Source: Lachnospiraceae bacterium
GTDB lineage: Bacteria > Bacillota > Clostridia > Lachnospirales > Lachnospiraceae
DNA: 64,000 nt
Assembly: GCA_017472605.1 (NCBI GenBank)
Contig: JAFUPV010000027.1
Coordinates: 151,318-215,317, forward strand
Reading direction: 5' to 3'
In this document: positions 10,339 to 61,024 of the stretch, piece by piece
Position numbering within the stretch: the stretch's first letter is position 1
Layout: every line of letters begins with the position of its first letter
Notes under the pieces: model-generated
Seen by the model: the letters and a program-made list of their open reading frames with translations, nothing else
What the model was told of the DNA's origin: nothing
Databases searched by the model: none
Program-made: the position numbers and the translations under genes

Positions 10339-12414
10339 ATGGAAACGAAAATGAAATTCGATAAAAATAGAGATGAGTTCCACCTCATTGTGAATGAGAA
10401 ATCTGTGTATACAGTCAGGCTGACAGAACTTTTGTGGTATTCGGTTGGTCGTCCGTGGAATCCCGTGGGAAATCGGTGGAGAATCACCGAGCTGCAGCAG
10501 GAAGAGAACTGCATTCTGGCAGTTCTGAGCAGCCAGGAGCTGGAAGCTTCGGTTCAGCTGAAGAAGGAAGATCAGGAAATCCGGATTTCTGTGATGTTTC
10601 GGAATGGGAGCGAAAAGGCTATGGACGAGTTGGCCTGCGGCATGAAACTGTCTGTCCGCAGTGGGGAGAAACAGAAAGTGACGATTCCCCATCTGATTTA
10701 CAACGATAACCCTTCCGCCGATCCGAATCGTGTTGTGCCGCACATCGGAACCGTCAACGGAAAAGGAACGGTTGTGGAGGAACATCGTCTCCCGATTCCG
10801 GCAGTGAATGTGGAGTGGAAGGAAGAGGAAGCTTTTTACAGTCTCACGCTGCTTTCCGTTCCTGAGACAGAGAACGGAACCGATGAGGAGTACTGGTCTC
10901 TCGGCGCATGCAAAACAGAGGGCGGGTATCAGATTCTTTCCGCCAGCGGTCCGCTGATGTTCAACGGGATGAGCGACGTGTTCTACGGAGGCAGATGCAC
11001 ACCGCTTTCCTACATGAAAGGGTACCGCAGGCTTGGATTTGGGGAAACTATTCATAAGGTCTATTATCTTCGTCTGGATTCTCATACGAAGGAGGGGAGG
11101 GGCTTTACCGTGCTTCCCGGCATGGGTTACCGGCTGCTTCATCCGCAGACAGTCCCCATGTATTCCTGCGAAGAAATGGTACATCTGAAAAAGAACGTGC
11201 TGGACAGCCGCTTTTATGAAGAGGAAGGATGCTGCGGCTATTTGACGTTCGGCGATAAAAATCCATTCGGAAACATATCCGGCCGCCCGGAATATTTTCT
11301 CTATGGCTGGACCGGTCAGGCAATCCGTCTGGCATGGTGCGACTGTATGCTGGGGATTCGGTCCGGGGAACCGTTCCGTCTGCAGAGAGCGATGAAGACG
11401 GTCGATCATTTCCTGAAAAACGGCGAATGCAGGATCCCCGGCCTGTATTTGGGATATTATCTGGTGAAAACCGGTTCCTGGCAGGGCAGCTGGAACGATC
11501 CGGGGACACCTGTTTCCTCCAGAATTGAAGGGGAGAGCATTTCTGACGTTCTGGATGTCATGCTTCTGCTAAAAGAACAGGGAACGGAAGTGCCGAAACT
11601 GTGGGAAGATGCGGTAAAACGGGTCTGCGAATTTTTGATGAGGGAAGATGTTTTGACCTCGGAAGGATTGTATCCTCTGTCCTGGACCATGGAAGGCCGA
11701 CCGTCATCGGAGCTGCGCAATGCGGCAGGAGCTCCCTGTGTGGCTGTACTGGCGAAGGCATATCAGTATTTTGGACAGAAGACTTATCTGGAACAGGCGC
11801 AGCGAAGGTACGAACGGTATGCGGAGATTTACATGAGCACCTTTGAAACGCCCTTTGCTTACGCAACCATGGATGCAGCATGCGAGGACAAGGAGGCAGG
11901 AATCTACATGTTTACAACGGCAGCGCTTCTCTATGAGATAACAGGGAATGACGGGTATCGGGAATGGGGAACGCTGACGGCAGACTGGATCCTGACGTTT
12001 GTCTACCACTGGGAAACGGGCTTTCGCCCGGGAACGCTCTGTGCGCAGAAAAAATTCCGGACAACGGGATGGCCCGGCGTCAGTGTGCAGAATCATCATC
12101 TGGATGTCTTTTTTCCGGTATATGAGCTGTATCGTTTTGGAAGGATATGCAAAAAACGGCGGCTGACCGAGATGGCTTCTCATATCGGAAACGCGCTGAC
12201 CTGCGGCATTGCGTCCGAGGAAGGGGAATGGGGCTATTCGGTCATCGGAGAACAGGGAGAACAGTACTATCAGACCAACTATTTTCAGGTCATGTATCCG
12301 CAGATTCTGCAGTATCTGGAACGCTACCGGGGCGGAATGCAGGTCTGGAATCCGTCCTGGATCACGGCCCAGGTAATGAGCGCAAATCTTCGTTTTCTGT
12401 ATGAGGATCGATAA
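10339..12414 (+). CDS. Uncharacterised glycosidase-like protein, probable six-hairpin fold
   Basis: 691 aa, complete, with GGAGG six bases before ATG. I cannot assign a known family. The first 250 residues look beta-rich. From about residue 290 there are repeated helical pairs typical of (alpha/alpha)6 barrels, with aromatic and Gly motifs such as YFLYGWTGQAIR, GSWQGSWNDPG, PLSWTMEGRPSSELRNAAGA and GWPGVSVQNHH. No signal peptide or membrane segment is visible. It is tightly coupled to the GH63-like gene and ends 3 bp before the convergent response regulator gene. A hydrolase acting on the same imported glycan is an inference from context. Confidence 0.6.
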   Translation: METKMKFDKNRDEFHLIVNEKSVYTVRLTELLWYSVGRPWNPVGNRWRITELQQEENCILAVLSSQELEASVQLKKEDQEIRISVMFRNGSEKAMDELACGMKLSVRSGEKQKVTIPHLIYNDNPSADPNRVVPHIGTVNGKGTVVEEHRLPIPAVNVEWKEEEAFYSLTLLSVPETENGTDEEYWSLGACKTEGGYQILSASGPLMFNGMSDVFYGGRCTPLSYMKGYRRLGFGETIHKVYYLRLDSHTKEGRGFTVLPGMGYRLLHPQTVPMYSCEEMVHLKKNVLDSRFYEEEGCCGYLTFGDKNPFGNISGRPEYFLYGWTGQAIRLAWCDCMLGIRSGEPFRLQRAMKTVDHFLKNGECRIPGLYLGYYLVKTGSWQGSWNDPGTPVSSRIEGESISDVLDVMLLLKEQGTEVPKLWEDAVKRVCEFLMREDVLTSEGLYPLSWTMEGRPSSELRNAAGAPCVAVLAKAYQYFGQKTYLEQAQRRYERYAEIYMSTFETPFAYATMDAACEDKEAGIYMFTTAALLYEITGNDGYREWGTLTADWILTFVYHWETGFRPGTLCAQKKFRTTGWPGVSVQNHHLDVFFPVYELYRFGRICKKRRLTEMASHIGNALTCGIASEEGEWGYSVIGEQGEQYYQTNYFQVMYPQILQYLERYRGGMQVWNPSWITAQVMSANLRFLYEDR

Positions 12415-14367: not shown

Positions 14368-15456
14368 ATGAAAAATCAGACATTTTGCATGGGTGTATTG
14401 GGACTTGGAGAAGGAAGAAGCATCATTTCCGCTGTTTTGCAGAGTAAATACTGGGAGCTTGGTATGATCTGCGATCTGAATGAAGAACTGTGCAGAGAGC
14501 GGTGCAGGGAGTTTGGAATTGACCGTTATACCACCGATTATCAGGATATGCTGGAGAATCCGGCAATCGATGTCATCGGAATTTATACACCGGATCAGCT
14601 TCATGCCACGCACATCCGGATGGCGCTGGAAGCAGGAAAGGATGTGATCTGTACCAAACCGCTGATGGTCAGTCTGGATGAGGCCAATGAACTGCTTGCT
14701 GTTCAGAGAAAGACAGGACGGCGTGTGTTTGTAGGACAGAGTTCCCGCTATTTTGAACCGGCCCGCAGACAGAGAGAAGACTATCTGGCCGGAAAGCATG
14801 GAGAGCTGGAAACGGTGGAAACCCACTACATCAGCGATTCCCGCTGGTTTCTGGAGCGGGCATGGAGTCATCAGAAGGGCTTTTCCTGGATGTATAATTT
14901 CATGATCCATGCGGTTGATCTGGCAGTATGGTATCTGCCGGACATTGAAGAAGTGTACGGACTGGCAGTTGTCAGCGAGAACACAAAGGCCTACGGACTG
15001 GATGTACCGGATACCCTGAAATTTCTGCTGAAGAATAAAGACGGTCGTTTTGCAAGCGTCTCCGGTGTCTATGCGGAGCCGACCCTGGGAAGTGCCGTCG
15101 AACAGAGCATCAGCTGCACACTGCGGGGCAGCAGGGGAATCAGCAGAGCCGGCTATCCAAAGCTGAAATACTACACCAATTTTCAGCCAATCCAGAAGAC
15201 GGCGCAGCTCCACACCTATGATGAGCTGCACGGCTATTACTTCCGGTTTGAGTCAGAGACGCATCATGCCGGAGAATATCAGAATTACATAGAAGAATAT
15301 GCGCAGGATGTGCTTGCAGGACGGACACCAAAGCCGGACCTGAAGGAGGGAATCCGTACACTGGCAGTGATGGAGGCCATGGAAGAATCCGTCCGAACCG
15401 GTCAGGCAGTGAAGGTTTCCGACATTCTTGCGCGAAGAAATATCAAATTAGAATAA
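14368..15456 (+). CDS. Gfo/Idh/MocA family NAD(P)-dependent oxidoreductase
   Basis: 362 aa, complete, preceded by AAAGGAGAAAAG. The N-terminal Rossmann fold starts MGVLGLGEGRS, a variant of the usual GxGxxG. The family EKP motif appears as CTKPLMVS, and the C-terminal alpha/beta domain carries the YNFMIHAVDLAVWY segment with the His expected near the active site. Such enzymes oxidise or epimerise sugars and inositols. It is 12 bp upstream of the large glycosidase-like gene, so it probably processes a sugar released by that locus. Confidence 0.9.
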   Translation: MKNQTFCMGVLGLGEGRSIISAVLQSKYWELGMICDLNEELCRERCREFGIDRYTTDYQDMLENPAIDVIGIYTPDQLHATHIRMALEAGKDVICTKPLMVSLDEANELLAVQRKTGRRVFVGQSSRYFEPARRQREDYLAGKHGELETVETHYISDSRWFLERAWSHQKGFSWMYNFMIHAVDLAVWYLPDIEEVYGLAVVSENTKAYGLDVPDTLKFLLKNKDGRFASVSGVYAEPTLGSAVEQSISCTLRGSRGISRAGYPKLKYYTNFQPIQKTAQLHTYDELHGYYFRFESETHHAGEYQNYIEEYAQDVLAGRTPKPDLKEGIRTLAVMEAMEESVRTGQAVKVSDILARRNIKLE

Positions 15457-15468
15457 GGAGGACATAAC

Positions 15469-18279
15469 GTGAAACAACAGATTCGGATGATCAGAGAAAC
15501 AGAAAACAACAAACGGATCGCACTGGGTTTATTCCATGTTGAGGCGAGTCTGAAGCAGGCGGAAATTTCATGTACATATGCGGCCGAGGGGGGCAGTGAC
15601 TGGACAACAGACAGAAGCTTCGACGGCTATACCATTTATGCAGGTGTCCGTGGGAAGAGCGGCCTGATTCGTGCGTTGGAGGAGAAGGGACTTCTTCTCT
15701 ATCATACCAAAGCACCGGAGGGAGAAGGGTTTTATGTGACGCTGATTTCCGGTCTGCGTCTGTTTGTGATTGTGGGAGGAAGCGATACCGGTGCACTCTA
15801 TGGCTGCCTGGAGCTGAAAGAGCGGATTGAGAAAAACATCCGTGCGGGAAAAAAGCAGGTTCTTCCCGTTGAAATTGCCTTTGGAGATGCGCCGCAGTTT
15901 CGTCTGCGCGGTCCGGCAATCGGTCTGCAGCTGACAAAGATCGAGCCGCCCCGTCTGACCTATGAATATCCGATCACACCCCAGCGTTTCCCCTGGTTCT
16001 ATGACAGGGCGATGTGGGAGAAATTCCTGGATCAGATCCTGATGGAGCGCTGCAATGTTCTCTATTTGTGGACCGGTCTGCCGTTCTCCTCGCTGGTGAA
16101 AGTACCGGATTACCCGGAAGCGCTGGAAGTCAGTGAAGAGGTGTATCAGTTGAATCGGGAGATGTTCAACTGGCTGACCGATGCCTGCGACCGGAGAGGA
16201 ATCTGGCTTGTTTTAAAATTCTACAGCATCCACATTCCACTGCCGCTGGCAGAGGCCCGTGGCGTGGAGCTGCTTCAGAGCTCCATCACACCGCTGAACG
16301 CGGACTACACATACAAATCCATTGTGGAATTCATCCGCTCTTTCCCTCACATCGGCCTGATGGTATGTCTCGGCGAAGCCCTGCGTGGAACTCAGAACAA
16401 AACAGACTGGTTCATCAAAACCATCATTCCGGCAGTAAAGGAAGGCATTGAAAAGGCGGGACTGACCGAGGAGCCGCCGCTGATCCTGCGCGGCCACGAC
16501 TGTGATCCCAATGCTGTCATGGAGCAGGCAATTCCGCTCTATGGAAATCTCTATACCATGTGGAAATACAACGGCGAAGGACTGACCACCTATCTGCCTG
16601 CCGGAAAGTGGCAGGATACCCATCTGCGTCTTTCCTCCCACGGCCAGACCCACATCATGAATGTTCATGTGGTGGCAAATCTGGAGCCTTTCCGCTATGG
16701 CTCTGCCTCCTTCATCCAGAAATGCGTGCAGGCGGGAAGAGACCGCATGGGCGTAAACGGACTTCATCTCTATCCGCTTTTTTTCTGGGACTGGCCATAC
16801 TCTGCGGACAAGGCAAGCCCGCGTCTGCTGCAGATGGATCGTGACTGGATGTGGTACAAGGCATGGTTCCGCTATGCATGGAATCCGGACCGTGATCCGG
16901 GCGCCGAGGAGCTGTACTGGAAAGAAGTCCTTGGCAGTCATTTCCACTGTGATCCGGAGACAGCCGGCCACATCCTGCAGGCATTCAACGACATGGGCGA
17001 GTGTGCGCCGCGGATTCTGCGCCATGTCGGCATCACGGAGGGCAACCGCCAGACCATGAGCCTTGGCATGTCCATGAGCCAGTTCACAAATGTGAAGCGT
17101 TACCGCCCCAACTATGAGCTGTGGCGATCTGCTTCCACACCGGGCGAACAGCCGGATGACTATGTAAAGAGAGAGATCAGCAAAGAACCGCACTATGGCG
17201 AGACACCGGTGGATATGGCAAGAGAAACCATTTATTTTGCCCAGTCCGCCCTGGAGCACATCACCACGGCCGTTGACCGCCTTAACGCTGCTCAGGAACA
17301 GGCTCCATGGACGAAAGCAGAAACAGAAGAGTAAAAGGACGCGGCAGCAAAGGCGGCAGCTCTCTGTGAACTGAACGGCTGGCTAACCGATATCACAGCG
17401 GTTTATCAGATGACCATGTGCTACGCAAAGAAACTGGAGGCGGCTTACCGGATTCTGCGCTATAAATATACCATGGATGAGAACCTGCGGGGCGATTTGT
17501 CGCTGCTGGAGGGGGCTCTGATTCCGTGGGAGGAGAGCATGGACTGGTACCGGAAACTGGCAAAGCTGACAGACCGCACCTATCTCTATGCCAACAGCAT
17601 GCAGACACCGCAGCGGAAAATTCCATTCCCCAACGGCGAAATTTTTGGTCACTGGACCGCCTGCCTGCCGAAGTACGAGGAAGAGCTGGCGAACTTCAGG
17701 AAGCATCTGGAGGAGATGAAGCAGGGCATTTACCCGGGCAATGAGACGGATGACGCAGTGGAAGCAGAACCGCTGCCCCAGGCACCGTTTACCCTGCTCA
17801 GTGAAAACTGCGAGACTTATACCATAAAGAAAGGGGAGCATGTATTCACAGACATGACATCGCCGATCCTGACCCTTGCGTCGGAGCTGAAAGGTCTGAC
17901 TGGCATCCGGTTCGGACTGGGTGAGGCAATTACGGACGGCATGAAGGTGAAGCTGTCTCTGCCCCAGGATTCCCAGATTCTTCTTGCCTACATGAACGCA
18001 AAAGCAATTGAATGGCTGCAGGTACCGGATCTGGAAACCAATACCCATGCCGATGACCGGGGCGGTCTTGCCGTTGTTTTTGCCAATGCCATGCAGGCAG
18101 AGAGCTGTCCGGATATGAACATCCATGTGTTCCAGTATGAGAAGGGAACCCATGAAATCTACATGGGTACCGGCGGATTTACCATTGTCGGTGTTGTGCC
18201 GGCCGGTGTGCCGATCAATGGACGAAATGCCGGTCTGTCCGGTGAGACACTGGATAAGCTGGACTGGCTTTACGAATAA
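15469..18279 (+). pseudogene. Large GH20/GH67-like glycosidase-related gene interrupted by one in-frame TAA
   Basis: A single frame runs from ATG 15469 (AAGGAGG upstream) to TAA 18277-18279, broken only by TAA at 17332-17334. The 621-aa first part has an N-terminal beta domain like that of GH20/GH67 enzymes (DTGALYGCLELKERI) and a barrel-like region beginning RLRGPAIGLQ. The second part (17335-18276) is fully open, starts with an Ala/Lys-rich helix continuing the helix before the stop, and has no ribosome binding site near its first ATGs (17404, 17410). The whole would be about 936 residues. Either this is a nonsense mutation (one base from GAA, AAA or CAA), a base-call error, or read-through. 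The exact glycosidase family is not certain. Confidence 0.75.
17332..17334 (+). other. In-frame TAA interrupting the glycosidase-like gene
   Basis: The stop is codon 622 of the frame starting at 15469. Upstream codons read KAETEE and downstream codons KDAAAKAAALCELNGW, which together look like one continuous charged helix. The sequence around it shows no slippery heptamer. Confidence 0.9.
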
Positions 18280-19127
18280 TGCAGTACACGCAGGAAGAAT
18301 TCCGATTTTCCGGCGGGCTGCCCTGGCGCCTGTTTCGAGTCACAGAAAAACAGAAGCAGCTTCACTGCCACAACTGTCTGGAACTGAACCTGGCAGAGAA
18401 GGGAACCGGAACCTACATCATCGGCGGCAAGCTGTATCCCATCCGCCCGGGAGATATTTTTGTGATCAATAATTCCGAACGTCATCTGGCACTTCATGAC
18501 GATGAGGAGCTGACATTAAGTGTTCTGATTTTTGATACGGATTCCATCTGGAAAGACAGGCATGGAAAAGAATATCTGAAGCCTTTTTTCCACCGGGCAG
18601 AAACCTTTTCCAACCGGATCACCAGCAGTGCGCGGGATTATCAGGCAATGCGGGAATGCTTCGAACGGATTGGACAGGAAGAGAAGGAGAGACGGATCGG
18701 GTGGGAACTGGTAACGGAGACGGAAGCCCATCTGCTGTTGGCGCTTCTGTACCGCTGCTATCACGAAAACCAGGAAATTGAAAAAACGGAGGACGGTATG
18801 AGCCGCTTCGGACGGCTGGAAGCGGTTCTCACCTACATTGACAGTCATTTTACAGAGCCCCTGACGCTCGACCAGCTGGCAAAGGAAGCAGCGGTCAGCC
18901 GGAATTATCTGTGCAAATGTTTTCGCGAAGCAACCGGACAGACGCTGTTCGCTTATATTGAGCAGACAAGGATTCAGTATGCCGCCTATCTGCTTCAGAC
19001 AACGGAGGAACCGGTGGCACGGATTGCCGTGGAGTCCGGCTTTGAGTCGGTTTCCTATTTTAACCGTCTGTTCCGCAGACAATATGAGATGTCGCCCGGC
19101 CAGTTCCGGCGGGGCAGAAATGCATGA
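18279..19127 (+). CDS. AraC family transcriptional regulator with N-terminal cupin
   Basis: 282 aa. The start ATG overlaps the preceding stop by one base (TAATG), indicating translational coupling to the broken glycosidase gene. Residues 1-130 look like an AraC-type cupin ligand-binding domain (HCHNCLELNLAEKGTGTY, YPIRPGDIFVINNSERH). Residues about 185-282 form two helix-turn-helix motifs (EPLTLDQLAKEAAVSRNYL, PVARIAVESGFESVSYFNR). It probably senses a sugar and controls this locus. Confidence 0.9.
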   Translation: MQYTQEEFRFSGGLPWRLFRVTEKQKQLHCHNCLELNLAEKGTGTYIIGGKLYPIRPGDIFVINNSERHLALHDDEELTLSVLIFDTDSIWKDRHGKEYLKPFFHRAETFSNRITSSARDYQAMRECFERIGQEEKERRIGWELVTETEAHLLLALLYRCYHENQEIEKTEDGMSRFGRLEAVLTYIDSHFTEPLTLDQLAKEAAVSRNYLCKCFREATGQTLFAYIEQTRIQYAAYLLQTTEEPVARIAVESGFESVSYFNRLFRRQYEMSPGQFRRGRNA

Positions 19128-19155
19128 GAAAAGGAGTCTTTCACAGAATCGACTG

Positions 19156-19190
19156 CTGCCGCGCCCTGCCGATATGGCAAGGCGCGGCAG
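19156..19190. terminator. Hairpin between convergent araC-type and kinase genes
   Basis: A 15-bp GC-rich stem with one mismatch (19156-19170 with 19176-19190) and a 5-base loop. It has no strong T run, but its position between two converging genes supports a terminator role. Confidence 0.5.
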
Positions 19191-19199
19191 ACAGATGGT

Positions 19200-20966
19200 T
19201 TACTGGAAAGGCTCCTTTAGCTGTTCTGCGGTCATGGCAGGGAACCGCAGATCAATTCGAAAGCTCATGTCATCGCCTCCGGAGGTGATGTGAATGCTGC
19301 AGTCGTTGTGGAAGACAATCCGCAGACGGCTGTTGACGTTGGTCAGGGCAAAGCCGACCGCGTCATTTTCGTTGTACAGATTCTGCTGCAGCTTCTGCTC
19401 GATGTCTGCCTGCCGCTGCGGCGAGATCGGCTTTCCGTTGTTGGCGAGGCTCAGCCGGATGTAACGCCGGTTTTCCTCCAGAAACGAAGTGACGGAGAGA
19501 ATGATCAGGTTGTCCTGGCGTTCGGAGACGATGCCATGAACGAAATAGTTTTCAATCAGCGGCTGCAGTGTGTTTTTTGGAAGGGCAAAGTGGCTGACGC
19601 TGTCATCCAGATCAAATTCATATTCAAAATTCTGGAACCGGTACTGATAGAGGATCATCAGGTTTTCACAAAGCTCTTCCTCCTGCTCCAGAGTGGCAAA
19701 CATGCTTCCGTTGATCTGAGAGCGGTAGATTTTGGAGAGAAGAAGGATCATCTGGGAGGCATCGGAGTTTTTACCATTTAATACCTGTGCCCGGATCATC
19801 TCCAGTGTGTTATAAAGGAAATGCGGGTTGATGCTGGTCTGGAGTGCATAAAGATCACTTCGCTTCTGCTGCAGCTCATAGACATAGGATTTCTCCACAT
19901 TCTGCTGCAGTTCGTTACACATGGCATTGAAACCTTCAATAATTTCAGTAAACTCATTATGTCCAGGAAGGCTGTCGATCCGGTAGGTCAGGTCATTGAG
20001 CTGGAATTTCTTCATACCGTCCAGGATCACATGGATGTTCCGGTTAGACAGGTAATAGGTCAGGTAGTAGAGACCGAAGGAAAACACAGTCAGCAGGAGC
20101 GCAAGGAGAATACTCAGTCGGGAAAGAGAGGGAAAGGCAGGCTGATATTCTTCGGTATAGTAGGTAAGCAGAAACTTTCCATTCTCAATCTTCAGGGTAT
20201 CCTGATAATAATTACCGGAAGAGACATCCAGAGCAGGTGAAGAGTTGAAAAAGAGATTGCCCTCCGGATCGGAAATGCGAAACGTGCAGTTTGTGGTAAA
20301 CTCGTAGTTTGCAAGGATGCTGTTATATTCCGCAACGGAGTAGAGTGGAATCAGATAGCCGAGAGGCGCATCCGCTGTCCGGTAGATGGTTGCCGTCAGT
20401 CCGTAATACGTGTGCTGGACAAACGCATTTCCGGTGCATGCGTAGATCATCCGGCTGACTTCATCCAGGGAAAAGGTATTGCGGCTGAATGGCGTGATGG
20501 GCTTCATGTCTGTGACATGCTCTGCCGGTGCCAGGTAGGCCTGCGTGTCGGAAAAGTAGTACAGCTGCTCAGTGGCCGGCGAATAGATCAGGAAACCGCG
20601 CAGATACCGGTCATCATTGCAGATGTCAGTCAGAAGGCGGATGCAGGAATTTCTGGTAGCGGCGCTGACATCATCGTAGGAGGAGGCCTCCAGCAGCTTG
20701 CAGAGATTGGGATCGCACCGGTTGCCGCTTAACACCTTTCCTGCCAGAATGTAGAAATTGTCAAAATGGTTGGAAAATGCCTCTGACAGGTTTGCCGCTG
20801 CCAGGTCATAGGGCTTCAGGTACTGGGAGCGTTCGTAGCGGATGGAAAGCTGCGAAATAAAGATGCTGACAGAGAAGGAAAAAACAGTCAGAAGGACCGT
20901 GCTGATCAGAAGCATGCGGGAGAAGAAATGGCTGTGTTTCGAAGAAAAAAAACGTGGCTTTTTCAT
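19200..20966 (-). CDS. YesM-type sensor histidine kinase
   Basis: Predicted 588 aa from ATG 20966 (AGGAG ten bases upstream). A transmembrane segment at about residues 15-40 is followed by an extracellular sensor region of about 230 residues, a second membrane segment (LSILLALLLTVFSFGLYYL), a HAMP-like linker, the His_kinase domain with INPHFLYNTLEMI carrying the phosphorylated His, and an HATPase domain with the N-box LQPLIENYFVHGI. It should sense an extracellular glycan or a loaded binding protein and signal to the YesN protein at 12418. It is divergent from the ABC transporter operon. Confidence 0.9.
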   Translation of the reverse strand: MKKPRFFSSKHSHFFSRMLLISTVLLTVFSFSVSIFISQLSIRYERSQYLKPYDLAAANLSEAFSNHFDNFYILAGKVLSGNRCDPNLCKLLEASSYDDVSAATRNSCIRLLTDICNDDRYLRGFLIYSPATEQLYYFSDTQAYLAPAEHVTDMKPITPFSRNTFSLDEVSRMIYACTGNAFVQHTYYGLTATIYRTADAPLGYLIPLYSVAEYNSILANYEFTTNCTFRISDPEGNLFFNSSPALDVSSGNYYQDTLKIENGKFLLTYYTEEYQPAFPSLSRLSILLALLLTVFSFGLYYLTYYLSNRNIHVILDGMKKFQLNDLTYRIDSLPGHNEFTEIIEGFNAMCNELQQNVEKSYVYELQQKRSDLYALQTSINPHFLYNTLEMIRAQVLNGKNSDASQMILLLSKIYRSQINGSMFATLEQEEELCENLMILYQYRFQNFEYEFDLDDSVSHFALPKNTLQPLIENYFVHGIVSERQDNLIILSVTSFLEENRRYIRLSLANNGKPISPQRQADIEQKLQQNLYNENDAVGFALTNVNSRLRIVFHNDCSIHITSGGDDMSFRIDLRFPAMTAEQLKEPFQ

Positions 20967-21160
20967 AAGAGAGACTCCTCGTATCATAGATTTACCGATT
21001 GAACCTCCGAATACCACGCAGGCAGCTTTCAACGGGAAAGTTACAGGAAGCGCGGATTCGGATTCCGTTTTACTAAGGATATCATAACATATTCCGACAG
21101 AAAAATGGAAAAGAATGTGAAGAAACTGTGAAAATGTACTGCTTTTTGGAATTTGTTCAA

Positions 21161-21190
21161 TTTACTTTGTGCAGAATGAGCAGATATAAT
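21161..21190 (+). promoter_or_regulatory. Promoter of the ABC importer operon
   Basis: TTTACT (21161-21166) and a perfect TATAAT (21185-21190) are 18 bp apart, about 95 bases before the first permease. I see no gene in the 316-base interval 20967-21282. Confidence 0.6.
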
Positions 21191-21282
21191 AAAACCAAGA
21201 AAACAAGCCAATTGGACGTTTTTGTGATTCGCTTTGCGGTACGTTCGGTTGGAAGTATGAACAAAAAAGGGGAGTACAACAT

Positions 21283-22212
21283 ATGCAAAAGTCAAAGAAG
21301 GCGAAAAGTCCTCGCCAAAAAGCCGGTTTTCGGCTCTTTCTGCTGTCAGCTCCGTTCCTGCTTGGAATTCTGATCTTTTCCTACATGCCTCTTCTGGGCT
21401 GGTCCTATTCCTTCTTCAACTATAAGCCGGGACGCGATCTGTTTGACTGTGATTTTGTCGGATTCAAATGGTTTATCGCACCATTTAACAATCCGGTGCT
21501 GCGGATGCAGTTTGTCCGTGTCATGTCCAACACGCTTGGCATCAACCTGCTTTACATGGCAACCATGATCCTTCCGATGATCTTCGCCATGTTCCTGATG
21601 GAGATTCCGTGGAAGGGATACCGGAAGCTGGTTCAGACACTGACAACGATCCCCAACTTCATCAGCTGGGTTCTTGTGTATGCGGCTTTCTTCTCCCTTT
21701 TCTCAACAGAAGGTCTTCTGAACACTCTTCTGATTGGAATGGGCGTGATCAAAACACCGGTCAACTACCTGACTGAGAACAGCCACATGTGGCTGAAAAT
21801 GCTGGGATATCATCTGTGGAAGGGCCTTGGATGGGGTGCAATTGTTTACATTTCGGCGATCACTTCCATTGATTCTGAAATCTATGAGGCAGCGAACATT
21901 GACGGTGCCGGACGATTCCAGAAGATGTGGTATATCACCACGCCGCATCTGCTTCCGACCTTCTTCGTCATGTTCGTCCTTCAGATCGGAAACATCATCA
22001 ACAATGGAATTGACCAGTATCTGGTATTTTCCAACGCAATGACTCAGGATGCCATTGAAGTTCTGGACCTCTATGTATACCGTTACGGTCTGCAGCAGGG
22101 CAACATTTCCTACGCAACCGCAGTCGGTATGTGGAAATCACTTGTCAGCGTGCTTCTTGTATTGATTGCTAACACGCTGTCGAAGAAGATTCGCGGATCA
22201 TCGATTTTCTAA
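21283..22212 (+). CDS. Carbohydrate ABC transporter permease (LplB-like)
   Basis: 309 aa, complete, with six predicted membrane segments. The EAA loop that docks the ATPase reads EIYEAANIDGAGRFQKMW. The N-terminus is basic (QKSKKAKSPRQKAG), as in LplB/YteP-type permeases that import pectin- or host-derived oligosaccharides. It is followed 42 bp later by the second permease. As usual for this type, no ATPase gene is present; a shared MsmX-like ATPase elsewhere is expected. Confidence 0.93.
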   Translation: MQKSKKAKSPRQKAGFRLFLLSAPFLLGILIFSYMPLLGWSYSFFNYKPGRDLFDCDFVGFKWFIAPFNNPVLRMQFVRVMSNTLGINLLYMATMILPMIFAMFLMEIPWKGYRKLVQTLTTIPNFISWVLVYAAFFSLFSTEGLLNTLLIGMGVIKTPVNYLTENSHMWLKMLGYHLWKGLGWGAIVYISAITSIDSEIYEAANIDGAGRFQKMWYITTPHLLPTFFVMFVLQIGNIINNGIDQYLVFSNAMTQDAIEVLDLYVYRYGLQQGNISYATAVGMWKSLVSVLLVLIANTLSKKIRGSSIF

Positions 22213-22254
22213 ACAGATTTTCCAAACATTCACGTCCAAAGAAAGGAGTCTCCA

Positions 22255-23193
22255 ATGGCATTACGAAGAAAACCGAAGGAAACGGAAAATCGCGGCGTTG
22301 TGAAAAAAACATGGAAGGACCATACCGTAGATATTCTCATCTGCATCGTATTCGGTCTGTTTACCATCGCCTGCATCTTCCCCTTCTATTACATATTCAT
22401 TAACACCATCAGCGATAATTCGCTGGTGGCAACCGGAAGAATCAACATCATACCCCGTGGAATTCATTTTGAGAACTATGCGAAGGTGCTGTCTCTGAAA
22501 GAGCTGCCGGGTGCTACCATGGTTTCGCTGGCAAGAACGGTTCTGGGAACCATATTCACGCTGATCTGCGCGTCCTTCCCGGCATACTGCTTCTCCAGGG
22601 AAGAGTACTGGCACAAGAAGATTTTTTACCGTTTTGTGATTATTACCATGTATTTCGGCGCCGGTGTGATCCCCACGTTCCTTACCTACAAAACGCTGAA
22701 CATCTATGATACCTTCTGGGTATACATTCTGCCCTGCTGTGTCACACCGTTCAATCTGATCCTTGTCAAGACGTACATGGAATCACTGCCTCCGTCTCTG
22801 GAGGAATCAGCGGAGATTGACGGAGCCGGATATCTGGTTCGTTTTACCAGAATTGTTCTGCCGTTGTGCAAGCCGATTCTGGCAACCATCGCCGTGTTCT
22901 CTGCGGTCGGTCAGTGGAATAACTGGATGGATACCGTTCTTTACACCAAGGACAGAGCGCTCCAGTCCCTGCAGTATGTTCTGTACCGTTACCTGAAGGA
23001 AGCAAACACACTGGCGGAGATTGCCCGGGAGAATCCGGAAATGATGGCGGAGATGGATCCGTCCACCATGCTGTCGCCGCTGACCATCAAGTATACCGTG
23101 TGTATCGTAACTATCGTTCCGATCCTGGTTGTGTATCCGTTCTTCCAGAAATATTTCGTAAAGGGTATGATGATCGGTGCGGTCAAGGGATGA
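22255..23193 (+). CDS. Carbohydrate ABC transporter permease (YtcP-like)
   Basis: 312 aa, complete, with AAAGGAG upstream. Six membrane segments and the EAA motif SLEESAEIDGAGYLVRF are visible. It ends FVKGMMIGAVKG, typical of the YtcP/LplC group. It is the heterodimer partner of the permease at 21283. Confidence 0.93.
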   Translation: MALRRKPKETENRGVVKKTWKDHTVDILICIVFGLFTIACIFPFYYIFINTISDNSLVATGRINIIPRGIHFENYAKVLSLKELPGATMVSLARTVLGTIFTLICASFPAYCFSREEYWHKKIFYRFVIITMYFGAGVIPTFLTYKTLNIYDTFWVYILPCCVTPFNLILVKTYMESLPPSLEESAEIDGAGYLVRFTRIVLPLCKPILATIAVFSAVGQWNNWMDTVLYTKDRALQSLQYVLYRYLKEANTLAEIARENPEMMAEMDPSTMLSPLTIKYTVCIVTIVPILVVYPFFQKYFVKGMMIGAVKG

Positions 23194-23321
23194 GAAGGGT
23201 TCCGGCAGTCAGGATGGAGTTGGGCAGTACAAAGAAATGCAGTAAAAACAGTTTCAAATCAATCAGGATAGAAGCCCGTGGCTTTATCATATAACGAAAA
23301 AAAATAATGGGAGGTTTTCAC

Positions 23322-25010
23322 ATGAAGAAAAAAGTTTTATCCTTAGTTCTTGCAGGTGCAACGATACTGTCCATGACAGGCGGCGTATTTGCAGCAGAGG
23401 CGGAGAAGGAAGAAGTAACGCTGACCGGTTTTGTCATGCAGTCTGTTACCGGTGAGTCCGGTATCTGGGAAGGCTGGGGCGCTCAGAAGCTTTATGACGA
23501 TCTGAAGATCAAGCTTGAGCTGGATCCGACCGGAAACGAAGTTGAGACAAAGCTGCAGCAGTATCTGGTTGCAGGTGAGCTGCCGGATATCATTGGCTTA
23601 AAAGGTCTGGATCAGGCAACTCTGGCGATGGAAGCGGACATGCTTCTTCCGCTGAACGAGTATGCGGATCAGCTGCCGAATCTGTTTGAGAACGAGCACT
23701 ATGCAAATGCAATCAAGTATTCTCAGGATTTCACCAGCTGTGATACCGGAAATCTGTACATCATGCCGACCGCAATCGGCCCGACTTCCTACAACTCCTT
23801 TAACTGGGTTCCGCTTCTGCAGTGGGATGCATACAAGGCAGTAGGTATGCCGGATGTTACCACACTGGAGGATTATCTGGATGTTGTTGAGAAGATGGTA
23901 GAGTACAAGCCGACCACCGAGCTTGGTGAAAAAGTTTACGGATTCTCTCTGTTCTCCGACTGGGACAGCGTAAGTGCACTGGAGATTTCCACTTTGTCCT
24001 TCATGTACGGTATTGATACCGAGTACGTTTCCCCGCTGATGGAGACTAATGTAATTACCAAGGAGACCAGCTCCCTGCTGGCGGACGACAGCTTCTACAA
24101 GAGAGCGCTGAAGTTCTACTTCGAAGCAAATCAGAGAGGCCTTCTGGATCCGGATTCCATGTCCCAGACCTATGCTGATGTAGACGCGAAGTTCAGCGCA
24201 GGCCGCGTGATGTTCTCCTGGTTCTCCTGGCTGACAGGAAGCTACAATTCCCAGAATCAGAACAATGCAGAGAAGGTTGACGGTCTTGCAAGTGTTGTTG
24301 CAGACGACATGAAGCTTTACAACGCACCGGCTCAGACCATCGGACGTAACTGGTATTTTGCAATCTCCAAGGATTGTGAAAATGTAGATGCTGCTCTTGA
24401 GTTCCTGAACTGGCTGTACGATCCGGAGATCTGTGCATACCTGTCCAACGGACCGCAGGGTGTAACATGGGATTATGATGAGAACGGCGAGCCGTACATC
24501 ATTAACTGGGATATCGTTGACAATAAGACAGAGCTGCTGATGCCGGAAGAAATCGGCGGCGGCGCATTCCAGGATGGCGTTTATGCGTTCAACACACTTG
24601 GACCGCAGGCTGCAACGGTTACTGAGAGCGGATACACACTGAGCTACCGTTACTGGCCGACAACCATCAGCAGAAATCCGTCTCTCATGAAGCAGGAAGT
24701 AAATGAGATGATGGGCGGTGTAAACGCACTGGCTGAGTATCTGTACGCAAATGATATGGTTGCTGATTCCACACAGGCTGTTAACATGATCACTCCGGCT
24801 ACCGATGATCTTGAAATCACAGTAACCCAGATCGGTGAGATCGTTAAGAAGTACTCCTGGCAGATGGTATATGCGGCTGACGAGGCTGAGTTCGAGGAAC
24901 TGTGGTCCACAATGACCGAGCAGGCAAAGGCGCTTGGACTGGATCAGGTAACCGAATATTATACCGCTGAGTGGGAAAAGGCTCTTGAACTTGTTAAGGA
25001 ATACGAGTAA
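23322..25010 (+). CDS. Extracellular sugar-binding protein of the ABC importer
   Basis: 562 aa from ATG 23322, preceded by GGGAGG. It belongs to the large (over 500 aa) LplA/YtcQ-like solute-binding group. An N-terminal Sec signal (KKKVLSLVLAGATILSM) ends at an AxA-type site (GVFAAEAE). No Cys is present, so there is no lipobox, which is unusual for a Gram-positive binding protein. The mature part contains typical binding-protein segments such as LVAGELPDIIGL and PTAIGPTSYNSFNW. The operon ends at the terminator 25099-25129. Confidence 0.92.
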   Translation: MKKKVLSLVLAGATILSMTGGVFAAEAEKEEVTLTGFVMQSVTGESGIWEGWGAQKLYDDLKIKLELDPTGNEVETKLQQYLVAGELPDIIGLKGLDQATLAMEADMLLPLNEYADQLPNLFENEHYANAIKYSQDFTSCDTGNLYIMPTAIGPTSYNSFNWVPLLQWDAYKAVGMPDVTTLEDYLDVVEKMVEYKPTTELGEKVYGFSLFSDWDSVSALEISTLSFMYGIDTEYVSPLMETNVITKETSSLLADDSFYKRALKFYFEANQRGLLDPDSMSQTYADVDAKFSAGRVMFSWFSWLTGSYNSQNQNNAEKVDGLASVVADDMKLYNAPAQTIGRNWYFAISKDCENVDAALEFLNWLYDPEICAYLSNGPQGVTWDYDENGEPYIINWDIVDNKTELLMPEEIGGGAFQDGVYAFNTLGPQAATVTESGYTLSYRYWPTTISRNPSLMKQEVNEMMGGVNALAEYLYANDMVADSTQAVNMITPATDDLEITVTQIGEIVKKYSWQMVYAADEAEFEELWSTMTEQAKALGLDQVTEYYTAEWEKALELVKEYE

Positions 25011-27821: not shown

Positions 27822-29162
27822 ATGGAGAAGAAAATGCCGCGCGAGATGACAGGCGCAGAGCTGAAATCCATGCTGAAGAGCAGCATCAATTTTAAGAGTC
27901 TTGGCGGAATGAAGTGTGAGGAACTGACTCTGCCGGAGGAAGACAAGCAGTGGTGGAGGGACGCTAAGATCGGCATGTTCATCCACTGGGGCCTGTATTC
28001 CATTCTCGGACGGGGAGAATGGGCCCGTTTTAACGAAAAGATTCCGAAGGAGGAATATGAAGCACTGGCAGATGAGTTCATTCCGGAGGATTTCTCCATG
28101 GATGAATGGACGGAGATTGCCAGATCCTTCGGTGCAAACTATGCGGTCATGGTAACAAGACACCACGATGGATTCGCGCTGTGGAACAGCGAGGGCAGCT
28201 ATGAGCATTTTGATTCCGGTCACCGCGGATCGCACCGGGACTTCGTCCAGGAATATGTGGACGCATGCAGAAAGGCAGGGCTGAAGGTTGGCCTTTACTA
28301 TTCCCCAATGGACTGGCGCTTCCCAGGCTACTTTGATCCAAAGGGACTGCCGGAGAACGCGGCGCTGATGAAGAAGCAGTGCTACGATCAGGTAGAGGAG
28401 CTGTGCAGCCGTTTCAATCCGGACATCCTCTGGTATGACGGCGGCTGGCTGGCGCACAAAGGAAGCGATACCTCCAGTGCCTGGTTCTGGGAGCCGGTTA
28501 AGCTGAACAAGATGGCCAGAAGCTACAATCCGAAGCTTCTGATCAATCCGCGTTCCGGCTGGGAAGGCGATTTCTACTGCGACGAGGGTTCCCATGAGAT
28601 TAAGGGAAAGATCATCCCAGTACCGTGGGAGAAGAACATGTGCGTCTGCTCCGGCTGTTCCTGGGGATGGATGGCAGATGACCCGGTTTCCGATTTTGAC
28701 TGGCTGATCCGCATGATGGTTAACGTTGTCTGCCGCGGCGGAAACTGGCTTGTAAACATCGGACCGGACCGCAACGGAAAAATTTCCGATGAAATTAAGA
28801 ACCGGATGCGTGAAGTAGGAGACTGGCTGCGAACCTACGGAGAGAGCGTTTACTGCACACAGGCAGGTCCGTTTGAGCCGGTGGATGATGTGTTTGGAAG
28901 TACATACCACGGAAATAAGGTTTATGTTCATGTGCTGGATACAAAGGCATTTGCCGATCAGGTTCTTCCGAAACTGGAGAATGAGATCATGGATGCCGCT
29001 CTGTTTGACGGACGTCAGGTGGAAGTGATGGAAACAGAGGACGGATATCGTTTCGTTCTTCCGGAAACAGAAGCGGCGCCGGATACCATTGTGGTACTGA
29101 CCATGAAGAATCCGGTCGAGAAGATGAAGGACGCGCAGATTTATTTTACCGGAAAGGAATAA
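27822..29162 (+). CDS. GH29 alpha-L-fucosidase (cytosolic)
   Basis: 446 aa, complete, with AAGGAGG upstream. Retaining alpha-L-fucosidase fold: WWRDAKIGMFIHWGLYS at the N-terminus, the HHDGFALWNS loop, and the nucleophile Asp in ILWYDGGW. The second half has RGGNWLVNIGPDRNG, which closes the barrel. No signal peptide. It sits 3 bp before the GH31 gene and after GH95, so the three probably remove fucose and then an underlying alpha-linked sugar from the same oligosaccharide. Confidence 0.93.
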   Translation: MEKKMPREMTGAELKSMLKSSINFKSLGGMKCEELTLPEEDKQWWRDAKIGMFIHWGLYSILGRGEWARFNEKIPKEEYEALADEFIPEDFSMDEWTEIARSFGANYAVMVTRHHDGFALWNSEGSYEHFDSGHRGSHRDFVQEYVDACRKAGLKVGLYYSPMDWRFPGYFDPKGLPENAALMKKQCYDQVEELCSRFNPDILWYDGGWLAHKGSDTSSAWFWEPVKLNKMARSYNPKLLINPRSGWEGDFYCDEGSHEIKGKIIPVPWEKNMCVCSGCSWGWMADDPVSDFDWLIRMMVNVVCRGGNWLVNIGPDRNGKISDEIKNRMREVGDWLRTYGESVYCTQAGPFEPVDDVFGSTYHGNKVYVHVLDTKAFADQVLPKLENEIMDAALFDGRQVEVMETEDGYRFVLPETEAAPDTIVVLTMKNPVEKMKDAQIYFTGKE

Positions 29163-29165
29163 GAG

Positions 29166-31451
29166 ATGAAGATTACAAGAATCGTGGGAACCGCGGACGG
29201 AATCGTCCGTGAGCCGCAGTGCTTTATTGAAGCGGACTTTACACCGGATGAGACAATCATTCAGAACGAGTCTGCGCGGATCCTGTTCGGCGAAGAAGAC
29301 CATCCGGTACTGATACAGTCCGGCTGGGAGCTGAAGAAGAAGGATATTTACCGCTTTGCGATTGAGGGAAAGGCAAAAATCGTAAAGAAAATGACCATTG
29401 ACGGTGAGCGTACTTTTGTTGAAAATGCGAAGGATATGCTGGTTGGCTCATCCTATGAGGGAACGCTGAAGCTGGATATCCGTTCCGATGAACGGATCCT
29501 TGGTCTGGGACAGCATGAGGACGGCATTGCCAATTACCGGAACTGTGTTCAGCATCTGTATCAGAACAACATGCAGATTCCAATGCCTGTGTTCCTTTCC
29601 ACAGGAGGATACGCAATCGTCCTTGCCGCGCAGTGCCTGATGATTTATGAGGAAAAAGAGAATCAGATCACTATTACTTTTGACGCGGCAGATCAAATCG
29701 ATTACTATGTCATTGAGGACGAAGATCTGCGAAAGCTGGCAAAAGCGGTGCGCCGCATGACCGGTAAGGCTGTTCTTCTGCCCAAATGGGCCTATGGCTA
29801 TGTGCAGTCCAGAGAGAAATACCGCACGCAGCAGGAGCTGCTTGATATTGCCGCTGAGTTTCAGAGACGGAACATTCCTGTTTCCTGCCTGGTTCAGGAC
29901 TGGCAGACCTGGAACAGGAACATGTGGGGAGATAAGCATCTGGACAAGTCCCGCTATCCCAATCTGAAGGAAGCGCTTGATGCTCTTCACGATCAGGGAA
30001 TCGGTTTCCTGTTTTCCATCTGGCCAAACATCAACAAGGGCAGTGAGGACAATGCGGAAATGGTGGAAGCGGGAAAGATGTATGCGAACCTGTCCACCTA
30101 TGATGCCTTTGACGAGGAAGCAAGAGCGCTTTACTGGAAACAGTGTGAGCGTGAGATTTTTGCTGCCGGTACCGATGGCTGGTGGTGTGACTCCAGTGAA
30201 CCGTTTACACCGGACTGGGGCGGCGTTGACAAAAAGACCGCTGAGGAGCGCTATGAGCTGGCAAAGGGGTCTCTGACGAAATATATGGATGCGAGACAGG
30301 GCAATTCCTATGCGCTGTTCCATGCACTGGGAATTCATGACAATCAGAGAAAATCGGACAATTCCAAACGTGTCATCAACCTGACCCGCTCCGGCTATCC
30401 GTCCATTCAGAAATATGGTGCCATCCTCTGGTCCGGCGATATCATGGCGACCTGGGACGTCTATAAAAATCAGATTGTGGAAGGACTTCAGATGGCGGCC
30501 AGCGGATTCCCTTACTGGACGCTGGATATCGGTGCGTTCTTCACCGGAAATCAGGAGTGCTGGAAGCGGTTCAGTGGTGTAAAGGAGGGAATTCATCCCT
30601 GGTTCTGGAACGGCCTGTTTGAACAGGGAAATGCCGATCTGGGATACCGCGAGCTCTATACCAGATGGCTCCAGTACGGCACATTCCTGCCCATCATGCG
30701 GTCCCACGGAACAGACACGCCCCGTGAACCCTGGTTCTATGGCGAGGAGGGAGACCTTTACTATGACACAATTGTCAAGTACATTCGTCTCCGCTATCAT
30801 CTGGTTCCGTATATCTACAGCCTTGCATGGAAGGTATACAAAGAAGATGAGATGATGATGAGAAGCCTTGTCTTCGACTATCCGTCCGATGAGACTGCTG
30901 CCACATGCACGGATCAGTACCTGTTCGGTGATTTCCTGGTATGCCCGGTAACAGAAGCGATGGAATATGGTCCGGAAAGCACACCGCTGAACAAAAAACA
31001 GGTTCGTTCGGTTTACCTTCCGGAGGGAATCTGGTATGACTATGAAAATAAGACAATGCTGACGGGTAAAAAGACCATCGAAGCAGATGCGCCGGTGTCT
31101 CACATGCCTCTTTACATCCGGGGCGGAAGCATTGTTCCGGTGGAGCAGAAAGGTGCGGCAAACCTCTATGAAAAGCAGATGACCGAAACGCTGACGGTTG
31201 AAATTTATGGAGGCGCGGACGGAAGCTTTGTCTATTATCAGGATGCCGGCAATGGCTATGAATATCAGAATGGTGCATATGCGGCGATTCCGCTTCACTG
31301 GTCGGATGCGGACCGGAAGCTGGCTGTTGGTGCAGTGGAAGGCAGCTATGCATATCCGCAGAAAATCAGAATTCTTCTTTATACACAGGAGGGCTGTATG
31401 GAGGCTTCGGCTGTGTATGAGGGAGAGGAGATTGCAATTGAAATAAAGTAA
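29166..31451 (+). CDS. GH31 alpha-glucosidase/alpha-xylosidase-type enzyme (cytosolic)
   Basis: 761 aa, complete. The family region A is DGWWCDSSEPF, with the nucleophile Asp, and the segment IMRSHGTDTPREPWFYGEE follows in the barrel. The N-terminal beta-sandwich has the LGLGQHEDG motif. GH31 includes alpha-glucosidases, alpha-xylosidases and alpha-galactosidases; the neighbours suggest xylosidase activity on fucosylated xyloglucan-like side chains, but this is inference. It begins 3 bp after the GH29 stop. Confidence 0.9.
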   Translation: MKITRIVGTADGIVREPQCFIEADFTPDETIIQNESARILFGEEDHPVLIQSGWELKKKDIYRFAIEGKAKIVKKMTIDGERTFVENAKDMLVGSSYEGTLKLDIRSDERILGLGQHEDGIANYRNCVQHLYQNNMQIPMPVFLSTGGYAIVLAAQCLMIYEEKENQITITFDAADQIDYYVIEDEDLRKLAKAVRRMTGKAVLLPKWAYGYVQSREKYRTQQELLDIAAEFQRRNIPVSCLVQDWQTWNRNMWGDKHLDKSRYPNLKEALDALHDQGIGFLFSIWPNINKGSEDNAEMVEAGKMYANLSTYDAFDEEARALYWKQCEREIFAAGTDGWWCDSSEPFTPDWGGVDKKTAEERYELAKGSLTKYMDARQGNSYALFHALGIHDNQRKSDNSKRVINLTRSGYPSIQKYGAILWSGDIMATWDVYKNQIVEGLQMAASGFPYWTLDIGAFFTGNQECWKRFSGVKEGIHPWFWNGLFEQGNADLGYRELYTRWLQYGTFLPIMRSHGTDTPREPWFYGEEGDLYYDTIVKYIRLRYHLVPYIYSLAWKVYKEDEMMMRSLVFDYPSDETAATCTDQYLFGDFLVCPVTEAMEYGPESTPLNKKQVRSVYLPEGIWYDYENKTMLTGKKTIEADAPVSHMPLYIRGGSIVPVEQKGAANLYEKQMTETLTVEIYGGADGSFVYYQDAGNGYEYQNGAYAAIPLHWSDADRKLAVGAVEGSYAYPQKIRILLYTQEGCMEASAVYEGEEIAIEIK

Positions 31452-31967: not shown

Positions 31968-32912
31968 TTGGAAACGAATATCGAAACGTACGATACTGGT
32001 CTGATTCTCCAGTGGCATCCGGCTGCCTGCAGTGCGGTACAGCTGGAAATGGGAGAAGGATTGCGTAATCTGGCCTGTGAGCCGGAGCACAATCTGAGCC
32101 GAATGCCGCTGCGGATTGATCTGCTGGTAGTTAAAGACAAGGACGATGCGGAAATCAGAAATGAGATCGGAAAACTGTTCAGCCGTTACAATGTGATGGA
32201 ATTCAAATCACCGGATGCATCCTGTTCGTCGGACGTCTATTATAAGACAGTGGGTTATGCCTGTCTGTATAAGGCGGATCGTGTAACAGAAAAGGAGATT
32301 CCGATTGAGGACATTACGATTTCAATTATCAGAAAGCGGAAGCCGGTCAAGCTGTTGAAGTATCTGCGCAAGATGGAGTTTGAAGTGAAGGAGGCCTATC
32401 CGGGAATCTATTATGTGAAGAAGAAAGGATTGTTTGACACCCAGCTCATTGTAACGAATGAGTTGGATCCGCAGAAGCATCCATGGATCACATCATTGAC
32501 AAAGGGACTCGGAATGGACGCAATTCGCCGGTTGCTGAAGAAAATTGACTCACTGGATTCGCATGAGATGAAAAAATATGCGGATTCTGTGCTGAATTTT
32601 GTGATGGAGGCAAACCCGGAGGAATTCAGAGAGTTGAAGAAGGAGGGCAGAAACATGTGTGAGGCTTTGCTGCGGTTGATGAAACCGGAACTGGATGAGG
32701 CAAAAGAGAAGGCGGAAGCGGAAGGAAGAGCCGCAGGAATGTCTGCCGGTCTGGCAGAGGGAAGAGCAGAAGGAAGAACAACTGGAATTCGTATGACACA
32801 GTTTGTTATCAAGAAGCTTGTTGATTCCGGACGCTTTGAGGAGCTGAAGATGGCGGCGGAGGATGAGATGCTGCTGCGTAAGCTTGCGGAAGAATTTGGA
32901 TTCAGCGAGTAA
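31968..32912 (+). CDS. Rpn-family PD-(D/E)XK nuclease/transposase-like protein
   Basis: 314 aa from TTG 31968, supported by GTGAGG seven bases upstream. The core has the PD-(D/E)XK pattern: Asp in RIDLLVV and Glu-x-Lys in NVMEFKSP, followed by YKTVGYACLYKA. The C-terminus has the Gly/Glu/Arg repeats seen in this family (AEGRAAGMSAGLAEGRAEGR) and a helical tail. Rpn proteins are recombination-promoting nucleases that occur in multiple copies in Lachnospiraceae genomes. It is probably an accessory gene and not part of the glycan pathway. Confidence 0.8.
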   Translation: METNIETYDTGLILQWHPAACSAVQLEMGEGLRNLACEPEHNLSRMPLRIDLLVVKDKDDAEIRNEIGKLFSRYNVMEFKSPDASCSSDVYYKTVGYACLYKADRVTEKEIPIEDITISIIRKRKPVKLLKYLRKMEFEVKEAYPGIYYVKKKGLFDTQLIVTNELDPQKHPWITSLTKGLGMDAIRRLLKKIDSLDSHEMKKYADSVLNFVMEANPEEFRELKKEGRNMCEALLRLMKPELDEAKEKAEAEGRAAGMSAGLAEGRAEGRTTGIRMTQFVIKKLVDSGRFEELKMAAEDEMLLRKLAEEFGFSE

Positions 32913-57466: not shown

Positions 57467-57829
57467 GAAACGATAGTAAAGACTGTGATGGAGAGAGTAA
57501 CCAGACGTCCGAACGTTCCAGCAAGCCGGTGTTGATGGGAGACCGGTATCAGTAGGGGCAGGTGAAAATCACTCCGGAGTTGCAGGCTGAAGGATTGGTA
57601 CTGTGAAAAGTCATACATGCGAAAGCAGGTAACGGCTGCGGCGTCAGAAAATGCGAAAGCGAAGCGCAGCCTGGATGGGACACAGAATCAGAATCCGGTA
57701 GGCTGAGCCGGTTTTCCCGCCGTTAACGGAGAGGCATATATCATACACCTCTGGTATATTGTGGTGTATCGTATGCGGCAATAGGTGGTATAACGAGGCT
57801 TCGTCCTATTGGGACGTGGTCTTTTTTTT
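57467..57829 (+). promoter_or_regulatory. T-box riboswitch (isoleucine) of ileS
   Basis: The leader has the stem I features GAGAGTAACCAGA and GGAGTTGCAGGCTGAA. The likely specifier codon is ATC (57568-57570) in GAAAATCACTCC, which reads isoleucine. The T-box sequence GGTGGTATAACGAGG (57784-57798) can pair with an uncharged tRNA 3' end. The terminator stem CGTCC/GGACG plus a second helix is followed by eight T residues (57822-57829). Uncharged tRNA-Ile would favour read-through into ileS. Confidence 0.88.
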
Positions 57830-57874
57830 ATAAAACCACACCATTCGCATACGCTGTATGAGAAAGGAGAAAAC

Positions 57875-60800: not shown

Positions 60801-61024
60801 TCAGTAAGATCCAGACCATGCGTAAGGAAGCCGGATTCGAGGTGACGGACCACATCACGGTATACCACAAAGACAATGAGAAAATCGCCGCAATCTTTGA
60901 GGCATATGGCGCGCAGATCTGCGCCGATGTGCTTGCAGATTCCATTGTTTCCGGTGAGCCGTCCGGCTACACAAAGGAGTGGAACATCAACGGTGAGAAC
61001 GTCGTTCTTGGCGTAGAGAGATAA
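57875..61024 (+). CDS. ileS: Isoleucyl-tRNA synthetase, type 2 (eukaryote-like)
   Basis: Predicted 1049 aa from ATG 57875 (AAAGGAGAAA upstream). HIGH-type motif in FYDGPPTANGKPHIGHVE, the segment RKAGWDTHGLPVE, the KMSKS motif in DGQKMSKSKGN, an editing domain between about 190 and 390, and an anticodon-binding region from about 700 (DLSNWYVRRCRDRFW). RKAGWDTHG and the motif context match the type 2 group, which is related to eukaryotic enzymes and is usually insensitive to mupirocin. Controlled by the T-box upstream. Confidence 0.95.
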   Translation: MLYNKVPTDLKFVEREKEVEKYWKDHKIFEKSIEEREGCPSYMFYDGPPTANGKPHIGHVETRTIKDMIPRYRTMKGYRVPRKAGWDTHGLPVELEVEKLLGINGKEQIEEYGLEPFIQKCKESVWKYKGMWEDFSATVGFWADMDEPYVTYHDNFIESEWWALKQIWEKGLLYKGFKIVPYCPRCGTPLSSHEVAQGYKDVKERSAIVRFKAVGEDAYFLAWTTTPWTLPSNVALCVNPDETYCKVNAADGKTYYMAQALLDTVLGKLGSEETPAYTVLETYTGKQLEYREYEPLFECSAKVAAKQNKKGYFVTVDNYVTMTDGTGIVHIAPAFGEDDARLGRNYDLPFVQLVNGKGEMTEDTPFAGLFVKKADPEVLKMLDYEGKLFDAPKFEHSYPHCWRCDTPLIYYARESWFIKMTAVKDDLIRNNDTINWIPEGIGKGRFGEWLKNVQDWGISRNRYWGTPLNIWQCECGHMHSIGSKEELRQMSPDCPETVELHRPFVDSVHLTCPKCGKRMTRVPEVIDCWFDSGAMPFAQYHYPFENQELFEENFPADFISEAVDQTRGWFYSLLAISTLLFNKAPYRNVIVLGHVQDKDGQKMSKSKGNAVDPFDALKEHGADAIRWYFYANSAPWLPKRFSDDAVREGRSKFMGTLWNTYAFYVLYANIDNFNPNDYSLDYDKLAVMDKWILSRLNSCVKECDDNLANYRINETTRVLQDFVDDLSNWYVRRCRDRFWAAGMEQDKINAYMTLYTCLVTIARTAAPMIPFMTEEIYLNLVYGLDQTAKESIHLCAYPQVEESFIDKDLEANMENLLKAVALGRACRNTANVKNRQPLANMFIKAPFTLGDFYDEIIADELNVKHVVFTDDVRSFTTYEFKPQLRTVGPKYGKLLGKIRQALGTIDGNAAMDELEEKGALNFDFDGQAVVLTKDDLLIEMVKKPGYVTENYGEVTVVLDCNLTDELVEEGFVREVISKIQTMRKEAGFEVTDHITVYHKDNEKIAAIFEAYGAQICADVLADSIVSGEPSGYTKEWNINGENVVLGVER

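Follow-up and report, generated by a model that had tools for sequence, protein, structure and literature searches.

An in-frame stop codon divides a putative GH138-type alpha-D-galacturonidase gene in a Lachnospiraceae pectin-utilisation locus: very probably a young nonsense allele or an error in the consensus

BPa0997 is, on our assumption, the structural model for CAZy family GH138. We take E294 and E361 of this protein to be its catalytic glutamates and R332 and R521 to be the arginines that govern specificity; the label E361S occurs in a PDB molecule name for BPa0997. BT0997 of Bacteroides thetaiotaomicron is presumably a relative. One report describes BT0997 as an alpha-galacturonidase that acts on galacturonic acid in alpha-1,2 linkage in a rhamnogalacturonan II oligosaccharide (PMC7939467), and another states that GH138 co-occurs with GH137, GH139, GH142 and GH143 (PMC7922503). 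A further point of reference is a survey of bacterial in-frame stops, which describes such stops as widespread, most of them lasting no longer than population polymorphisms do, and places carbohydrate metabolism as the second most frequent category among them (PMC7918605). Our literature search on premature stops in gut glycoside hydrolases found no papers, a result that is not proof of their absence.

In this report, we describe a gene from a window of 64,000 nucleotides (the whole stretch of DNA analysed) of a Lachnospiraceae bacterium, in which the coding frame of a predicted GH138-type alpha-D-galacturonidase is divided by one TAA (Table 1). We conclude with considerable confidence that the cause is either a very recent nonsense allele or an error in the consensus, in a gene of a pectin-utilisation locus. 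The case looks like an ordinary nonsense allele or sequence error in a known enzyme family, not a new mechanism.

Table 1. Positions, within the window, of the divided gene, its parts and its immediate neighbours
Feature	Position	Strand	Remarks
Gfo/Idh/MocA oxidoreductase gene	14368..15456	+	just upstream of the enzyme gene
Upstream part of the putative GH138-type alpha-galacturonidase gene, 621 aa	15469..17334	+	GTG start; ends at the internal TAA
Lineage-specific insert holding the TAA	17281..17349	+	about 23 codons (605-627); extent approximate, edges alignment-dependent
In-frame TAA	17332..17334	+	absent from every homologue examined
Downstream part of the same gene	17335..18279	+	314 codons plus TAA; encodes the C-terminal third; separate start site not found; no decay seen
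AraC-type regulator gene	18279..19127	+	ATG overlaps the enzyme gene's terminal TAA (TAATG)

The first-pass annotation had proposed a single glycosidase-like gene that is open from 15469 to 18279 except for this one stop, with a downstream half that has the same codon character but lacks a ribosome binding site. Translation confirmed the frame: it comprises 937 codons, and only codon 622 and the terminal TAA are stops, so that one continuous frame for a protein of about 900 residues is not present. The GTG start is preceded by AGGAGG. Base composition is alike in the two halves, with GC contents at the three codon positions of 0.585/0.414/0.63 and 0.586/0.392/0.646. The first in-frame ATG past the stop lies at 17410 (codon 648) and has no Shine-Dalgarno-like sequence ahead of it; initiation there would also forfeit aspartate 641, which is invariant across 56 aligned sequences (the window gene and 55 of its 78 usable homologues).

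Neither half matches a Pfam family at an E-value of 0.001. Both match the NCBIfam profile NF049878 (alpha-D-galacturonidase), the upstream half over profile positions 10-606 of 901 (E = 2e-205) and the downstream half over 613-901 of 901 (1.2e-64). Because the halves match one family at complementary profile positions, the split frame goes beyond chance, and the proposal of one divided gene stands. When the stop was read through in a whole-genome family search, the match spanned positions 9-901 (9.2e-270) with one TAA inside. At 896.2 bits, this joined match falls below the curated NCBIfam cut-off of 1300 bits, as do all the matches in the family-, order- and phylum-level genome sets; none of the 397, 392 and 398 genomes, respectively, reaches the cut-off, while the control, Bacteroides ihuae, passes it. 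Thus, the cut-off seems to have been set for Bacteroidota. Sequence searches identified a single relative of solved structure, BPa0997 (PDB 6hze, 6hzf and 6hzg), to which both halves are similar. Its E294, E361, R332 and R521 align with E303, E370, R341 and R527 of the window protein; all four residues are present, all are invariant in the 56 sequences mentioned above, and all lie in the upstream part. The window gene differs from BPa0997 and BT0997 in its broken frame and in having some 23 extra residues in one loop. The label of glycosidase can therefore be kept and, by the NF049878 and BPa0997 matches, narrowed to a putative GH138-type alpha-galacturonidase, whose expected role would be the release of galacturonic acid from side chain A of rhamnogalacturonan II.

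Scanning genome contigs yielded 138 matches to relatives, 80 of which were retained. Eighty-three loci (L002-L084, with L001 being the window itself) yielded 78 usable homologues, 49 from Firmicutes and 29 from Bacteroidota. Left out were L016 (the same place as L002), L084 (part of the L002 place), L083 (the window's own gene), and L075 and L080, which end at a contig edge ahead of the downstream part; among those retained, L042 is cut at its 5' end and L034 and L043 at their 3' ends. All 78 homologues read through the junction in one frame without a stop, 76 of them reaching their own stop codon and two being cut by a contig end. The first-pass annotation had named consistent encoding as two separate proteins with their own starts as the observation that would count against it; no homologue (0 of 78) is split at the junction. 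The NF049878 searches, conducted on the three partly overlapping genome sets, agree with this result. Besides the window's gene, the 397-genome set held 13 full-length matches in 12 genomes, and the 392- and 398-genome sets (matches listed at E = 1e-50 or better) held six and three; none has an internal stop, leaving the window genome as the only one that does in these searches. Within the window's genus, two of three genomes, the window genome included, carry the gene. The window genome has no second copy, and its one other match is weak and short (23 bits over 66 positions). In another genome, G553, the same enzyme gene occurs in two pieces on two contigs (L169 and L170); this is probably a contig break, since the first piece seems to correspond to the place where L075 meets its contig edge.

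The part of the gene beyond the stop shows no sign of relaxed conservation. Across 47 sequences (the window gene and 46 of the 49 Firmicutes homologues), the downstream half keeps 96 of 100 columns conserved at 80%, 41 of 41 conserved at 97% and 68 of 68 conserved at 90%, ranking 37th from the low end of the 47 for kept 90% columns; for the upstream half, the figures are 205 of 210 columns kept and 13th place among the 47. The terminal branch of the window gene measures 0.18 in the downstream half and 0.27 in the upstream half, a rough comparison because the trees (the window gene and 44 of 54 Firmicutes homologues, with no Bacteroidota) were built apart for the two halves and differ in shape. 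On these alignments, the downstream half does not appear to be decaying faster than the upstream half. Therefore, the stop must be very recent, the consensus must be in error, or the gene must still be in use.

With its disabling change in an otherwise conserved frame, the assembled sequence has the makings of a young pseudogene, and we lean modestly toward a strain-level nonsense allele that would be very young. A case of this kind fits the picture of short-lived in-frame stops: like the single-nonsense alleles and young pseudogenes treated in the survey, it features one in-frame stop in a carbohydrate metabolism gene whose frame is conserved on both sides. It differs in that the surveyed stops are shared by at least two species, whereas the present one, situated in a lineage-specific insert, is not known from any other strain or species (PMC7918605). 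A single-base sequencing or assembly error in the consensus of an intact gene with an unusual loop is a possible but less probable explanation. In its favor, the stop is isolated, decay is lacking, the draft genome consists of 75 contigs, and no other obvious split gene is present in the window, as judged by eye from the remaining open reading frames that were scanned with Pfam. Such an error, however, would have had to land within 23 of 936 codons, and there is no homopolymer or long repeat that would favor one.

An opposing point is that a lack of decay also fits a gene that is still used. Ribosomes might decode the TAA at a low rate, yielding some full-length enzyme and making the stop a brake on expression. 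The open, conserved and undecayed downstream frame is what this idea would predict, and the survey argues for frequent read-through of bacterial in-frame stops, which may reduce expression over short periods (PMC7918605). Several observations weigh against it. The stop occurs in none of 83 homologues, and TAA ends 23 of the 35 genes listed in the window. Further, a stop-reading anticodon is absent from all 54 tRNA matches (ARAGORN typed 53, and a His-like one was read by eye), in a tRNA set that is itself incomplete, with no Ile or Ala tRNA among the 53 typed and an assembly that is 95% complete. TAA is also not the leaky stop codon. Neither a suppressor tRNA nor conservation of the stop between species, either of which would mark a suppressed stop, was found among these tRNA matches and homologues, and we consider read-through improbable. 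As for the other TAA-ended genes in the window, five of the 23 have at least 100 open codons past the TAA; three of these open stretches continue in frame into the following gene, and two are antisense to a neighbor. A change of genetic code was rejected on the grounds of the 23 of 35 listed genes that end in TAA and the absence of a stop anticodon among the 54 tRNA matches. Selenocysteine and pyrrolysine were likewise rejected, as they use TGA and TAG, respectively, and not TAA. At three places in the window, 14368-17334, 21283-23193 and 27822-31451, two neighboring genes lie in the same frame with only a TAA, plus a short spacer, between them.

The recent nonsense allele or consensus error favored here leaves one detail of an otherwise ordinary case unexplained, namely that the stop sits inside a lineage-specific insert. 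We aligned this region with 83 homologues (the 78 described above and five of 19 newer loci, the other 14 repeating sequences already included). From codon 585 to the invariant aspartate, the window protein has 57 residues, compared with 28-41 in the 83 homologues (34 in 53 of them), and the column of the stop is a gap in all 83. The insert is in frame with the rest of the gene, and the length-variable loop that contains it seems, judging by sequence, to join two helices. Searched against its own genome, a 111-base stretch around the stop occurs only once, the best other match having an E-value of 0.355; accordingly, copying of the insert from elsewhere in this genome was rejected, no source being found. 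GC at third positions is 9 of 23 in codons 605-627 and 0.635 in the gene, a weak difference (binomial 0.015) that comes from one test with self-chosen edges.

The location of the break invites the idea of a two-piece enzyme, in which the stop would separate two polypeptides that reassemble around a variable loop between helices, where splitting could be tolerated. This arrangement is even less probable than read-through, given that the sequence past the stop offers no start codon preceded by a ribosome binding site, that use of the ATG at 17410 would remove conserved residues, and that no homologue is split at this place. Phase variation in the population, which would also accord with a stop in a variable insert, we consider the least probable of all. 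Repeats do lie close by: an 8-nt direct repeat with a spacing of 12 just past the stop, and just ahead of it an inverted pair of 9 nt that has one mismatch (17249-17257 and 17302-17310). However, the stop falls neither within the span of the direct repeat, whose spacing is divisible by three, nor between the arms of the inverted pair, no homopolymer of at least five bases occurs in 17260-17400, and exact inverted 7-mers at spacings of 40-120 occur 14 times in the gene. That abundance also led us to reject an inversion switch operating through the 7-base inverted pair that flanks the insert. No long repeat or switchable element was found near the stop.

A random nonsense change would fall in the insert only about 2.5% of the time (23/936 codons), which hints at a possible connection between the two. 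One form of such a link would be that insert and stop arrived together and that the stop has been kept to act as a brake on translation, or as a break point, a proposal to which we assign about the same low probability as to read-through. Under it, most ribosomes would release the catalytic two thirds of the protein, and a minority would make the full enzyme, or the parts would reassemble. If this were true, termination efficiency would set the level of both the pectin enzyme and the overlapping AraC regulator. Taken as a whole, the data fit the recent nonsense mutation or the consensus or assembly error among the four options of the first-pass annotation; of its other two, phase variation had no repeat or switch found that would account for it, and read-through, like the two-piece enzyme, gained no positive support.

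The genes around the enzyme fit a role in carbohydrate and pectin use. They encode GH28, GH95, alpha-L-fucosidase, GH31 and GH88 proteins, an apiosidase-like protein, transporters, and AraC and two-component regulators. Judging from the spacing, the oxidoreductase gene is probably in the same operon as the enzyme gene. The first-pass annotation had also held that the AraC gene is translationally coupled to the enzyme gene. The overlap at 18279 is real, and coupling is plausible because the AraC gene lacks a clear ribosome binding site ahead of its start; the arrangement was not seen in relatives, however, in that a same-strand AraC gene was the best AraC match in none of the 50 loci listed (best match per locus, with L002 and L016 being one place). 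For this comparison, at least 900 downstream bases were available in 43 of the 49 Firmicutes homologues, and some loci had little flank. In L016, from a relative in the same genus, transporter genes directly follow the enzyme gene; these share 77-86% identity with their counterparts in the window, and the enzyme itself only 62%. The enzyme gene of the window may have replaced an earlier one and come from another lineage. Compared with window positions 15469-25010, L016 has no AraC or histidine kinase gene between the enzyme and transporter genes.

Other observations on the window may be recorded here. The open reading frames at 10339-12414 (691 codons) and 31968-32912 (314 codons) have no Pfam match; the former, which sits between two carbohydrate genes, has no NCBIfam match either. 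At 57806-61024, long frames are open on both strands (1071 codons on the plus strand and 1020 on the minus strand). Only the plus frame matches a Pfam family (class I tRNA synthetase), and the minus frame is thus probably a by-product of codon bias.

If translation does stop at codon 622, its product would be a fragment of 621 residues that keeps the catalytic pair and lacks the C-terminal third, and owing to that loss the fragment would probably be inactive. A gene that was once called only glycosidase-like now has a family. The result suggests that a pectin side-chain enzyme encoded in this gut genome does not function, and, unless the reads are checked, the locus should not be scored as a full set for pectin degradation. 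A nonsense allele without decay would also be a useful strain-level marker for the loss of a dietary fibre function.
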